From Candidatus Nucleicultrix amoebiphila FS5 (GTDB taxonomy: Bacteria; Pseudomonadota; Alphaproteobacteria; Caedimonadales; Nucleicultricaceae), in assembly GCF_002117145.1 (NCBI RefSeq), contig NZ_CP008743.1:682001-746000 (forward strand): a DNA stretch of 64,000 nucleotides, written 5' to 3'. This document shows, one piece after another, positions 3,702 to 8,974 of this stretch. The position numbers and the translations under genes were made by a program. The notes beneath the pieces were generated by a model, which saw only the letters and a list, made by a program, of their open reading frames with translations, did not search any database and had not been told where the DNA came from. Numbering within the stretch: the first letter of the stretch is position 1; the number at the start of each line of letters is the position of its first letter.

Positions 3702-4646
3702 ATGACCGCAAGCCTAAACATCTATCGTGTTTCAGAACAATCAAACCTTAGCAATACTCAAACACTTATTGCAAAAAATCAAAAGGATGTGACACAAGCC
3801 TTAAATAAAATGTCTTCAGGAAGAAAAGCTGAGTTATACAGCGATATATCTTCACAAGCACAAGCATTGCAGAATCTTCTCAATCAACAAGTTAAAGATA
3901 ATAGTTATATTTCGTCGATTTCAACAGTCGACGGCCGATTAGAGATGGTCGAATCACGAATTAATCAAGTAATAGATTTAATAACAGAGGTACGCACACG
4001 TATCACTGGGGCTCTCAATCCAACAGCTATTGATAAAGGGCTTAATGATTATGCAAAAAATTGTTTGGCTGAGATGCAAAATATCTTAAACGCCAAAGAT
4101 TCCGAAAATTTATATCTCTTCGGTGGAGAGAGGACTGATAAGCAACCTGTAGATGTAAGTCTAATAGGTCCCTACTCTCTCGGTGCCCCTTCGAGTAAGA
4201 TATATACACAGCCAGATCTAATTTCACGATCTGTACCTTTATCAGATAGCACAGAACTTTCTTATGATGTTCTCGCTAGTGAAGACGCTTTTGCTGATAT
4301 CCTTCATGCTTTAAAAATTTGCTCTACAGCACAACCCACCCCAGACCCAAATTCAAACGACTATAAACTTTTACAAGAAGCTCTTACATATGCCGGTCAA
4401 TCCATGAAGGAGGCTTCTGGACTTTTGGATCAAGTAGGAACTAAACGTCTCACACTAAATACAACCACAAAGGAATATCAAGATAGTCAAAAATATTTAA
4501 AGAGCTCTATCGCAAATATTGCCGAGGCAGATCCTTATGAAAGCTATGTGAAGTTAATTGAAAATCAAACACGCTTTTCATGTTCTTTGTATGCAGCCAA
4601 ACAAATTCTTTCTGCAGATAAAATTTTATCGATTTTTTCAAGATGA
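3702..4646 (+). CDS. flgL: flagellar hook-associated protein 3, FlgL
   Basis: FlgL (HAP3) is the second hook-filament junction protein and belongs to the flagellin fold. The N-terminal helix (NTQTLIAKNQKDVTQALNKM, then SSGRKAELYSDISSQAQAL) and the C-terminal helix ending LYAAKQILSADKILSIFSR pair in a coiled core. The 314-residue length is typical. Its last bases (ATGA at 4643-4646) overlap a possible ATG for the next gene, but that gene more probably starts 15 bases later. No flagellin gene is in the window. Confidence 0.9.
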   Translation: MTASLNIYRVSEQSNLSNTQTLIAKNQKDVTQALNKMSSGRKAELYSDISSQAQALQNLLNQQVKDNSYISSISTVDGRLEMVESRINQVIDLITEVRTRITGALNPTAIDKGLNDYAKNCLAEMQNILNAKDSENLYLFGGERTDKQPVDVSLIGPYSLGAPSSKIYTQPDLISRSVPLSDSTELSYDVLASEDAFADILHALKICSTAQPTPDPNSNDYKLLQEALTYAGQSMKEASGLLDQVGTKRLTLNTTTKEYQDSQKYLKSSIANIAEADPYESYVKLIENQTRFSCSLYAAKQILSADKILSIFSR

Positions 4647-4657
4647 GGGGGACTAAA

Positions 4658-5167
4658 ATGAAAGTAACACTAAAAAATGAACTCACCACAAGAAATAAAA
4701 AAATCCTTAACAATTTTAATATTGAGGTTAGTAGCCATAAGAATGATATTTCTGTAAAACTTCCAAAGGGTTTATTTGGTTTTAGCCAAGAACAAAACTT
4801 TCTTTTAAAAAATTTTCCTCAAGATAAATTTTCTCCATTTCGCGTATTATATAATCCTGAAGCTCCTGATTACTCTTTTATAGTGTTACCTGCAGAGTCT
4901 CTCAACGGATTCGCTCTTAGTGATCAAGAAAAAAATAAAACAGCTTCATTTTATGGAATCGCTGAAAAATCTGTCAAAATTTTATATATTGTTACTATTC
5001 AGAATAGTGGCAATTCTTATGAGATTACGGCTAATTTAAAAGCTCCGATCGTTTTAGATAAAGATAATAACTTGGCGTGGCAACATATTTTAGATAACCC
5101 TGACTATCAAGTTGATTACTCTCTTACTGCCATTTCGGAAACAATCAAGCTACATAAAGATAATTGA
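4658..5167 (+). CDS. fliW: flagellar assembly factor FliW
   Basis: About 169 residues matching FliW: LPKGLFGFSQEQNFLL near the start, the SPFRVLYNPEAPDYSFIVLP segment, and the very characteristic NLKAPIVLD followed by a Y-x-V-D ending. In Bacillus and Campylobacter FliW binds flagellin and antagonises the RNA-binding repressor CsrA. Here it directly follows flgL, as in Firmicutes (flgK-flgL-fliW-csrA), but no csrA follows. I prefer ATG 4658 because GAGGGGG (4646-4651) is well spaced before it; ATG 4643 has no SD. The gene ends the flagellar run. Confidence 0.8.
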   Translation: MKVTLKNELTTRNKKILNNFNIEVSSHKNDISVKLPKGLFGFSQEQNFLLKNFPQDKFSPFRVLYNPEAPDYSFIVLPAESLNGFALSDQEKNKTASFYGIAEKSVKILYIVTIQNSGNSYEITANLKAPIVLDKDNNLAWQHILDNPDYQVDYSLTAISETIKLHKDN

Positions 5168-5175
5168 GTCTTTAA

Positions 5176-5225
5176 AAGAACAATGTCATGATAACTAAAA
5201 GTTCTTCATAAGGAAGTTATCATGA
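5176..5225 (+). promoter_or_regulatory. inverted repeat enclosing RBS and start codon of the L,D-transpeptidase gene
   Basis: TCATGATAACT at 5186-5196 is exactly complementary to AGTTATCATGA at 5215-5225, an 11-bp perfect stem. The right arm contains the ATG (5222-5224), and the Shine-Dalgarno AAGGA lies at the loop edge. A second 6-bp pairing, AAGAAC 5176-5181 with GTTCTT 5201-5206, has one arm inside the loop of the first, so both together would form an H-type pseudoknot. Such a structure in the mRNA should block ribosome entry; alternatively the DNA dyad is a protein operator. Function is inferred; the pairing is seen directly. Confidence 0.55.
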
Positions 5226-6889
5226 AAAAATTATCAATACTGCATTTACTAGTGATTGTTTTCAGTTTGAACGTTTCCATCAACATGGGGCAAGCAAGAG
5301 CGGAAGAGTTTACAACTCCTGTTGAGTTAGTGCAAACAACTGAGTCCTTCAGTCATGATATAAAACATTTCTTGCATAAGCTCATTAAGGAAAAAAAAGT
5401 TTTATCTTCTCAAGAGAAATTTCTTGTTGATCTCTATACAGCACGAGAATTTGAACCCTTGTGGCTCGATGATTCAGGAAACCTAAAAGATAGCACCTAT
5501 TATGCTATAGAAACATTACTAAATGCAGCTAATGAAGGAGTAGATCCTGAAGACTATGCTCAAACTGTCGAAACATTTAAGGGTTTCTATAATGATCCTA
5601 ATCAGCGCCTTAAGGCCGAATTTACTCTTAGCAAGGCCATTGATAGCTATATCGATGATTTAACAGGGTCAAGGTTAAGTCCTAAAAAAATTGATAAAAG
5701 ATTATACTTGAATCCAGATCCTGTCGAATCAGCACACGTTGTTCTCCATGGATTTCAAAATGATCCTTCGGGATTATGGCTCAAAACATTCACTCTCGAA
5801 AGTCCAGAGTATCAAACATTAAAAGGTATTCTTGCAAAATATCGATCAATCGAATCTCGAGGAGGATGGCCCTCTTTACCCACGGGGCCAGCTCTTAAGA
5901 AAGGAATGAAAGAGCATCGAGTTTCGGTCTTACGTCAAATACTCTTTATGCAAGGAGATTTAGAAGATGAAACGCAATCACCAAATTTTGATGATGCTGT
6001 AGAACAAGCTGTGAAACGCTTTCAAAATCGTCATGGTATTGAACCAGATGGAATTGTTGGCAACGGAACCGTGACAGCGCTTAATATTCCGGTAAATCAA
6101 AAAATCAAACAAATTCTCATTTCAATGGAACGGTGGCGTTGGTTGCCGCAAAATTTAGGAGAGCGCTATGTTATGGTGAATATTGCTGGCATGGAGCTTA
6201 AAGCTGTCGAAAAAGGTAAAAGTCCTTTATCCATGAAAGTTATCGTGGGCATGAATTATAGGCAAACTCCTGTTTTTTCATCTTCAATCTACTCAATTCG
6301 TTTTAATCCAGTATGGAACGTTCCGCGTCTCATTGCAGTTCAGGACAAGTTAAAACTTATTCATAAAGACCCAGGATATCTAAGAAAAAAGGGCTTTGTA
6401 GTTTATGATGGATCAGGCAGTCAAATTAATCCAGATGATGTTGATTGGTCTAACGTAACAGCCGAAAATTTCGACTATCATTTTAAACAATTACCTGGCT
6501 CCATGAATGCTTTAGGCAAGATAAGATTTTCTATTCGAAGTCCCTTTGATGTTTATCTTCACTCAACTTCAGACCCTCAGTTATTTAATAAAAGCTCACG
6601 ATATTTGAGTTCAGGATGTATTCGCGTTGAAAAACCTGTTGAGTTAGCTATGTTTGTCTTTAATAATCCACAACAATGGCCCAGAGAAAAAATTGAAAGT
6701 TCTATGGAAGGCAATATTACTAATAATGTAGACTTAAAAAACCCCGTCCCCGTTCACATAACTTATTTTACTGTATGGGAGGATTCCGACGGTCTTGTAC
6801 ATTTTGCCAATGATATTTATGGACAAGATCAACGCATTTGGCTTTCTCTTGAAGAGCAGCGAAAGGGTCGTTTTAGTCAAAAAGCTTAA
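5222..6889 (+). CDS. ldtD: L,D-transpeptidase, YcbB/LdtD-like
   Basis: A periplasmic enzyme that would form 3-3 (mDap-mDap) peptidoglycan crosslinks. Order of parts in 555 residues: Sec signal peptide (1-27, cleavage after QARA), the Ldt scaffold domain (about 50-230), a PG_binding_1 domain (about 235-285, with AVKRFQNRHGIEPDG), then the YkuD catalytic domain (about 315-480). The catalytic motif is H-S-T ... SSGCIR with the nucleophile at Cys466. This arrangement is that of E. coli LdtD (YcbB), and the MepK-like gene follows as it does in E. coli (ycbB-ycbK). The start codon sits in a strong inverted repeat. Length is close to the family norm. Confidence 0.9.
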   Translation: MKKLSILHLLVIVFSLNVSINMGQARAEEFTTPVELVQTTESFSHDIKHFLHKLIKEKKVLSSQEKFLVDLYTAREFEPLWLDDSGNLKDSTYYAIETLLNAANEGVDPEDYAQTVETFKGFYNDPNQRLKAEFTLSKAIDSYIDDLTGSRLSPKKIDKRLYLNPDPVESAHVVLHGFQNDPSGLWLKTFTLESPEYQTLKGILAKYRSIESRGGWPSLPTGPALKKGMKEHRVSVLRQILFMQGDLEDETQSPNFDDAVEQAVKRFQNRHGIEPDGIVGNGTVTALNIPVNQKIKQILISMERWRWLPQNLGERYVMVNIAGMELKAVEKGKSPLSMKVIVGMNYRQTPVFSSSIYSIRFNPVWNVPRLIAVQDKLKLIHKDPGYLRKKGFVVYDGSGSQINPDDVDWSNVTAENFDYHFKQLPGSMNALGKIRFSIRSPFDVYLHSTSDPQLFNKSSRYLSSGCIRVEKPVELAMFVFNNPQQWPREKIESSMEGNITNNVDLKNPVPVHITYFTVWEDSDGLVHFANDIYGQDQRIWLSLEEQRKGRFSQKA

Positions 6890-6910
6890 AAACAAAAAGT
6901 TTTTTAGCTT
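6882..6910 (+). terminator. AT-rich hairpin at the end of the L,D-transpeptidase gene
   Basis: AAGCTTAAAAAC (6882-6893) pairs with GTTTTTTAGCTT (6899-6910) with one T-T mismatch and a five-A loop; the stop codon lies in the left arm. There is no U-run after the stem, so it is only a weak candidate for a terminator. It could instead protect the 3' end of the mRNA. Confidence 0.3.
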
Positions 6911-6978
6911 GATTCATTTGGCAGTTTTTAATAACACCGAATGAGTATATAATTACATTGTGAAGCATAGGGGATCTT

Positions 6979-7545
6979 ATGAACAACGGCTTTAAATTGA
7001 CTAGACGACAGTTCTTGGTTGGAACAAGCGCCACTATGGCAACTTCTCTTGTCACCCCATCTATTGCAAAAGCACAAACTCCTGTTAAAGCTCTCAGCTT
7101 ATATAATACACATACAGGAGAATTTTTCAAAGAAGCCTATTGCGAACATGGTTGCTACATCAAAGAATCGATCGCAAAAATTAATCATATTATGCGTGAT
7201 TGGCGCACAAATGAAATAACACAAATGGACGTTAAGCTCATTGATCTGTTACATCATCTTCATCAGAAAATAGGCAATAACAAGCCTTTTGAGATTATTT
7301 CAGCCTATCGTTGTCCTCGCACAAACTCAATGTTAAGAGAAGCTGGCAATCATGTGGCAAAAAATAGCTTTCATTTAAAAGGGCAGGCTATTGATATTCA
7401 AATGTCTGGTTTTAATCTTCAATACTTAAGAGATGCAGCCTATCAAACAAATGCAAAAGGGGTTGGGTATTATCCTAGTTCTGGCTTTATTCACGTTGAT
7501 GTTGGTCATAGAGCTCATAAAAAGAATCTTCAGGCTCGTTGGTAA
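6979..7545 (+). CDS. mepK: MepK/YcbK-like murein endopeptidase (DUF882, M15 type), Tat signal
   Basis: 188 residues. The N-terminus carries a twin-arginine signal (LTRRQFLVGTSATMATS) ending near AKA at about residue 33. The catalytic part has ISAYRCPRTNSMLR, then FHLKGQAIDI, with His132 and Asp139, and FIHVDVGHRA with His172, the zinc ligands of the M15/LAS fold. E. coli MepK cleaves the mDap-mDap crosslinks made by L,D-transpeptidases, and the gene is next to ldtD there as well as here. So this protein probably removes or edits crosslinks made by its neighbour. GGGGATC about 6 bases before ATG is the likely RBS; a TATAAT at about 6946 could serve as its own -10 box. Confidence 0.85.
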   Translation: MNNGFKLTRRQFLVGTSATMATSLVTPSIAKAQTPVKALSLYNTHTGEFFKEAYCEHGCYIKESIAKINHIMRDWRTNEITQMDVKLIDLLHHLHQKIGNNKPFEIISAYRCPRTNSMLREAGNHVAKNSFHLKGQAIDIQMSGFNLQYLRDAAYQTNAKGVGYYPSSGFIHVDVGHRAHKKNLQARW

Positions 7546-7615
7546 ATCAATTATTATTGGTTTATTAACCTAATCCTCTTAAAATACTTGCAAAATAATT
7601 CAGGAGGATACTCGT

Positions 7616-8974
7616 TTGTCAACACAACAAAAATCTAGCTTAAAAAAAGGCCAAAAGATCACTTTTACAAAAGCCTTTACACCAAGAGAGCTTCAGATCT
7701 GTTCAATTTTTGGCACAAACGGAGATGAGGAAACACTCCTTAAAACTCATGGCCCCTGTCACTTAACTCTCTCAGGTCAAGGTTGGCTTGAGAATCTCAT
7801 ACTCTTAACTTTAAGCAAATATACATCCAAAATTGTCCCCCTCATTCGTGAACAAAATTTAAGTTTCGTACGTCCACCAAACTTAGGAGAAACAATCACT
7901 CTAGAGTTAGACGTAAAGGAAAAAGATGAGGGCAATGAAGCATCTCTTTCTTGTGAATTTAAAACGTCGCTCGGTGAAGTAATTGGAAGTGGAGCTCTTA
8001 TTGTTTCATTAAGCCCTGAAGAGTCTTCAACTGAATCTTTGACTTTTCAATGCCCAGGACATCATCACCAACATCTTGTTAATAGAGCAAAAAAAAATCC
8101 TCCAATGAAAGTTGGAATAGTGCATCCTATGGACGCGATATCTTTATTAGCAGCGATTGAAGCTCATAAACAAGGGTTTATTGAAGCAGTTCTTATTGGC
8201 CCTGAGGCACGCTTACAAAGACTAGCCAATGACCTAAATGTGGATTTAAGTCCTTATAAAATTTTTTCTACCCATCACAGTCATGAATCCGCAGCCACAG
8301 GCGTCAAATTGGCTAAAGATGGAGAAGTCAATACACTCATGAAGGGGGCCATTCATACAAATGAATTCTTATCCTTTATCATCGCAAAAGATTCAGGCCT
8401 ACGTACAGATAGAAGGATGAGTCATATCATGATCAATGATTTACCAAATTATCCCAAACTTCTACTTGTGACTGATGCTGCTATCAACATTTTGCCTGAC
8501 TTAGAATGCAAAGTAGATATTATCCAAAATGCAATAGATCTAGCTCATTCTTTTGGAATTGAAAAACCAAAAGTAGCACTTCTTTCTGCTATAGAAACCG
8601 TCAATCCGAAAATTCAATCCACTGTAGATGCTGCAGCTCTTTCTAAAATGGCTGAACGTGGACAAATAATGGGCGGTATTATTGATGGACCGTTAGCGTT
8701 TGATAATGCTATTTCAAAAGAATCTGCTGAAATAAAACATATTCACTCTCCTGTTGCTGGAGATCCTGACATTCTCGTATGTCCAGACCTTGAATCAGGT
8801 AATATTTTAGTTAAACAATTTAAATATCTTGCAGGTGCTCAAGAGGCTGGAATCGTTATGGGTGCTAAAGTTCCATTTATTCTCACAAGTAGATCGGAAG
8901 ACATCAACAGTAGGGTTGTCTCTGCTGCCATTGCAAATTTACTTTTTCACCATCGTCATGGAACGCATAGATAG
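7616..8974 (+). CDS. bifunctional MaoC-type enoyl-CoA hydratase / phosphate acetyltransferase
   Basis: 452 residues with two parts. Residues 1 to about 145 form a MaoC-like hot-dog domain (FVRPPNLGETITLELDVKEK). Residues about 160-450 form a phosphate acetyl/butyryl transferase domain (MKVGIVHPMDAISLLAA ... VMGAKVPFILTSRSEDINSR). It should interconvert acetyl-CoA and acetyl phosphate, feeding ackA which begins 2 bases later. This fusion beside ackA is common in alphaproteobacteria. The start is TTG at 7616, supported by a perfect AGGAGG at 7602-7607 with 8-base spacing; no suitable ATG is nearby. The role of the MaoC half is not clear from the sequence. Confidence 0.88.
   Translation: MSTQQKSSLKKGQKITFTKAFTPRELQICSIFGTNGDEETLLKTHGPCHLTLSGQGWLENLILLTLSKYTSKIVPLIREQNLSFVRPPNLGETITLELDVKEKDEGNEASLSCEFKTSLGEVIGSGALIVSLSPEESSTESLTFQCPGHHHQHLVNRAKKNPPMKVGIVHPMDAISLLAAIEAHKQGFIEAVLIGPEARLQRLANDLNVDLSPYKIFSTHHSHESAATGVKLAKDGEVNTLMKGAIHTNEFLSFIIAKDSGLRTDRRMSHIMINDLPNYPKLLLVTDAAINILPDLECKVDIIQNAIDLAHSFGIEKPKVALLSAIETVNPKIQSTVDAAALSKMAERGQIMGGIIDGPLAFDNAISKESAEIKHIHSPVAGDPDILVCPDLESGNILVKQFKYLAGAQEAGIVMGAKVPFILTSRSEDINSRVVSAAIANLLFHHRHGTHR

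Follow-up and report, generated by a model that had tools for sequence, protein, structure and literature searches.

A predicted hairpin over the start codon of an L,D-transpeptidase gene, and its possible role as a damper of translation, in Candidatus Nucleicultrix amoebiphila FS5

Hairpins over start codons are a known means of restraining translation, and in the RNA thermometers of the ROSE and fourU types it is the Shine-Dalgarno sequence that is paired, with a U-rich strand. Related arrangements respond to ribosomes or to proteins: in the Salmonella mgtQ-mgtB leader an intergenic ORF of eight amino acids controls a stem-loop that occludes the ribosome binding site (PMC8092293), and in E. 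coli ymdA the protein CsrA opens a hairpin that occludes the Shine-Dalgarno sequence (PMC7492729). The CsrA consensus is given as RUACARGGAUGU in PMC7652899, which also states that base pairing of the GGA weakens CsrA binding. A depletion of inverted repeats immediately upstream of start codons is described for E. coli (PMC6060812).

The leader of the L,D-transpeptidase gene ldt analyzed in the present work, which lies in a window of 64,000 nucleotides (the whole stretch of DNA that was analyzed), resembles each of these systems in part. Like the thermometers, it has a U-rich strand opposite its Shine-Dalgarno sequence, but it differs from them in that 11 perfect pairs over the AUG remain unmelted by 55 °C in the model and in that Rfam returns no family. 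Like mgtQ-mgtB, it is an intergenic leader with a short ORF beside a start-occluding stem-loop, whereas for the Salmonella system alternative stems are described together with an alignment of orthologues and proof from mutants (PMC8092293), and the ldt leader offers one dominant predicted stem that is not conserved in the leaders compared here. Like ymdA, it has an occluded initiation region containing GGA, in a genome that encodes both CsrA and FliW; ymdA, however, has two CsrA sites (PMC7492729), while ldt has a single GGA near the start, which is paired in the prediction.

The features of the locus are collected in Table 1. The original prediction described 11-bp perfect arms with the ATG inside the right arm and AAGGA at the edge of the loop, and the coordinates and the sequence bear this out: the arms are perfect reverse complements separated by an 18-base loop, and the AAGGA lies 7 bases upstream of the ldt ATG. 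There is no other in-frame start between the preceding stop and this ATG, and the N-terminus, judged by eye, resembles a signal peptide, so this start is probably right. The genes between 1835 and 7545 run on one strand in the order flgK, a flgL-like gene (so called because of its position and a flagellin domain at its N-terminus), fliW, ldt and a DUF882/M15_2 gene, and the gap between fliW and ldt contains no terminator-like site on the + strand. The repeat itself was considered as a terminator and rejected, since on the + strand no T-run follows the right arm (AAAAATTATC) and on the - strand the T-run is broken.

Table 1. Positions within the window of the genes and leader elements discussed in the text
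Feature	Position	Strand	Details
fliW	4643..5167	+	PF02623 9.7e-20; ends 54 bases before the ldt ATG
AAGAAC, upstream strand of the proposed pseudoknot helix S1	5176..5181	+	pairs with GUUCUU 5201-5206; 6 bp, with a stacking energy near -8.1 kcal/mol
Left arm of the inverted repeat, TCATGATAACT	5186..5196	+	perfect complementarity to the right arm; middle pair predicted with a probability of 0.9999
Hypothetical 7-codon upstream ORF, MITKSSS	5188..5211	+	stop TAA overlaps the Shine-Dalgarno sequence
18-base loop	5197..5214	+	UUCUU (5202-5206) and Shine-Dalgarno AAGGA (5210-5214), mutually pairable
Right arm, AGTTATCATGA	5215..5225	+	ATG 5222-5224 inside; AUG predicted to be unpaired at 37 °C with a probability of 0.001
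L,D-transpeptidase gene ldt	5222..6889	+	555 aa; Scaffold + PG_binding_1 + YkuD: PF03734 2.9e-19, PF20142 6.1e-19, PF01471 1.6e-9
M15_2 (DUF882) peptidase-like gene, downstream of ldt	6979..7545	+	PF05951 1.2e-49

Comparison values for the leader were obtained from 409 gene starts, which a simple ORF caller with heuristic start assignment identified in a 464-kb sample of this genome. The ldt AUG has the lowest unpaired probability of all 409, the GGA of its Shine-Dalgarno sequence is predicted to be unpaired with a probability of 0.05-0.07 at 37 °C, and opening the region from -15 to +5 would cost 10.7 kcal/mol against a mean of 6.3, which places ldt 33rd among the 409. The 11-bp stem alone is predicted at -11.4 kcal/mol, and at -12.9 kcal/mol with the 5-bp inner helix UUCUU/AAGGA, which adds 1.5, has a pair probability of 0.60 and would partly bury the Shine-Dalgarno sequence. 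The stem probability is maintained in sequence contexts of up to 501 bases. Stable pairing over both the start codon and the Shine-Dalgarno sequence, which is what a sequestered ribosome binding site consists of, is thus present in the predicted fold, and the claim that the start and Shine-Dalgarno region are locked is borne out by the model, provided that the left arm is included in the mRNA. The overall stability is less distinctive: in the fold of 5160-5250 the start is paired, but the z-score is only -1.76, 12 of 200 shuffles equalling or exceeding it in stability, and in total folding energy the leader is unexceptional, at rank 85 of 409.

The reading that we tentatively prefer, on the strength of the modelled fold, is that the hairpin would be a cis-acting fixed damper of ldt translation, and not a sensor, possibly relieved by ribosome traffic. 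From the observed sequence and gene order, and from the predicted occlusion of the AUG, we infer that the ldt transcript would begin at or before 5186, for instance through read-through from flgK-flgL-fliW, and that this leader would fold into the 11-bp hairpin burying the AUG, with the Shine-Dalgarno sequence partly covered by the inner helix. Because both elements would be buried, independent initiation at ldt is proposed to be slow; the damper would keep the L,D-transpeptidase low relative to the upstream flagellar genes, and passing or reinitiating ribosomes could open the stem and permit translation. In favour of this account are the longest start-codon arms and the most occluded AUG of the 409 starts, the arrangement on one strand, and a gap of 54 bases with no terminator-like site on the + strand; against it are the ordinary folding energy, the lack of the pairing in all 12 other leaders described below, a weak promoter match that would start transcription inside the repeat, and the approximately 0.2 repeats of this kind expected by chance in a genome. 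A damper at ldt would be of the known kind, although the hairpin is unusually clean and lies at a lineage-specific junction of a flagellar operon with a cell-wall gene. It would acquire greater significance only if it proved to be a switch.

The main rival to a damper is chance, that is, a repeat which arose from AT-rich sequence and has no regulatory role, either because transcription begins inside it or because its effect on translation is neutral, and we regard this as a serious possibility, though on balance a doubtful one. Perfect arms of at least 11 bp with loops of 3-60 bases number 30 in the 464 kb sampled from the genome, and 4 of at least 11 bp lie within the window; five first-order Markov randomisations gave 2 to 14 such arms, with a mean of 8.8. 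A right arm of 11 bp over the start occurs at one of the 409 called gene starts, that of ldt, which stands 3 bp ahead of the next longest (8), and among 4000 random leaders a single one attained 11 over the start. The analytic expectation of start-codon repeats is 0.0078 for the 60 genes of the window and 0.22 for the 1700 genes of the genome, where both gene numbers are round assumptions. Since about 0.2 are expected per genome, finding one anywhere in a genome of this kind is unremarkable, whereas a case in a given window (about 0.008 expected) is about a 1-in-100 event, but one which was chosen after reading the sequence. The original argument that so exact a placement was unlikely by chance bears on the position over the start, which is rare, and not on the arms themselves, which are common. 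The depletion described for E. coli in PMC6060812 also speaks against chance, and the ordinary folding energy speaks for it.

The point at which transcription begins also matters to an explanation by chance. No strong sigma-70 match was found on the + strand over the fliW-ldt gap, which contains several 8-of-12 promoter matches, one of which, TTGAGT-17-CATGAT, would start transcription near 5199. A start near 5199 would drop the left arm and so leave the AUG largely free, with a modelled unpaired probability of 0.57-0.71.

Further evidence in favour of chance comes from relatives. The order comparison comprised 10 genomes including that of Candidatus Nucleicultrix amoebiphila FS5, the others all lying outside its family and genus, and ldt is present in 8 of the 10, this one counted. 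Leaders were inspected at 13 of 20 loci (the leader itself together with L002-L010, L012, L013 and L016, the start positions of L006 and L012 being uncertain), with L011, L014, L015 and L017-L020 left out because the N-terminal match was incomplete or the homologue distant. A start-codon repeat of at least 9 bp was found in none of the 12 other homologous leaders, 7 from the order and 5 further ones from the class. The comparison with relatives by which the pairing had been proposed to be judged thus gave no conservation at the level of the order, in 7 leaders that all come from outside the family. In one of the 12, L008, from a Caedibacter relative, an unrelated 8-bp perfect repeat, CTCATTTA/TAAATGAG, lies over the start at approximately 1343-1370 of the locus, and its congener L009 is without it.

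The gene order around the leader is equally restricted. Six of the 10 order genomes, including this one, carry fliW, and in all five others fliW and ldt lie on separate contigs (in the best assembled of the five, G004, with 4 contigs, fliW is on C3 and ldt on C1); genes other than fliW sit upstream of ldt in these relatives. The absence of the fliW-ldt junction from all five indicates that the junction and its leader are specific to this lineage, and a young leader is in keeping with chance. Of 385 class genomes, this one alone has the exact repeat pattern, which was also absent from the viral contigs searched; a tblastn search of plasmids gave homologues only, all below 60% identity.

A further account is translational coupling in the manner of Salmonella mgtB, in which a ribosome on the upstream ORF at 5188-5211 would open the left arm and the next ribosome would start at ldt. 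The start codon of this ORF lies in the left arm and its end 10 bases ahead of the ldt ATG, and the eight-amino-acid ORF controlling an RBS-occluding stem-loop, described in PMC8092293, provides a precedent. We consider coupling unlikely, however, because comparable upstream ORFs precede 101 of the 409 sampled genes and this one has no 4-base Shine-Dalgarno core upstream. A further ATG, at 5183, opens an ORF of 2 codons.

It is very unlikely that the repeat acts as a DNA operator whose regulator grips both arms and blocks transcription. The dyad is perfect and each arm contains the palindrome TCATGA, but the genome holds a single site pair, the best other pair in 464 kb carries 4 mismatches, the arm centres lie 29 bases apart, and no strong promoter covers the repeat. 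The suggestion of an operator covering the start accordingly failed for want of a second copy in the genome or in any of the 384 other class genomes. A dispersed repeat was also rejected, the 71-base leader being single-copy in the genome, and so was a recurrent motif. The sequence TCATGATAACT occurs five times in the genome; two of these occurrences are the arms of the repeat, and two others, at 1.723 Mb, lie within an ORF that resembles gyrB (recognised by eye). The sub-motif TGATAACT falls below expectation in the 464 kb (15 against 27). With up to 2 mismatches, TCATGATAACT is found 41 times in the window against 27.3 expected, a number reached by none of 100 shuffles, and TCATGA is found 442 times in the 464 kb against 301 expected.

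It is also conceivable, though highly improbable, that CsrA, under the control of FliW and flagellin, binds the ldt leader and holds or opens the hairpin, so that production of the L,D-transpeptidase would be coordinated with that of flagella. The gene ldt directly follows fliW, and CsrA is encoded in this genome, at 535 kb. The Shine-Dalgarno region of ldt, AUAAGGAAGU, agrees at 9 of 10 positions with ACANGGANGU, a form of the CsrA consensus; 10 other genes among the 409 also score 9, and one more scores 10. The unpaired loop GGA with ACA...GU flanks that marks a CsrA site is lacking, the GGA of ldt being paired in the predicted fold. The helix S1 and the inner Shine-Dalgarno helix need the same loop bases and are mutually exclusive, and there is an equally slight chance that the two alternatives, in which UUCUU pairs either with AAGGA or with the upstream AAGAAC, represent two states under such control. 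If CsrA did act in this way, the hairpin would tie the 3-3 cross-linking of the cell wall to flagellar assembly. FliW and CsrA occur together in the same 6 of the 10 order genomes, and both are undetected in the other 4.

That the leader is an RNA thermometer or a pseudoknot riboregulator is hardly credible: although UUCUU pairs with AAGGA and a crossing 6-bp helix could form, the AUG remains closed in the nearest-neighbour model (0.004-0.005 unpaired even at 55 °C), which argues against a thermometer, and an Rfam search of 4400-7700 matched no described family up to E = 1, so that the proposed thermosensor was rejected. The gene context gave no sign of the envelope-stress response that had been suggested. 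A literature search on thermometers, transpeptidases and Shine-Dalgarno sequences gave no match, and there was no publication on the ldt leader among the matches listed. With regard to the H-type pseudoknot that had been put forward, the crossing geometry and its connectors of 4, 4 and 8 bases (AAUG, AAAA and CAUAAGGA) stand, but the second helix, besides being incompatible with the inner one, may well be due to chance, a 6-bp helix being found in 11% of shuffles on the upstream side alone and in 24% on either side.
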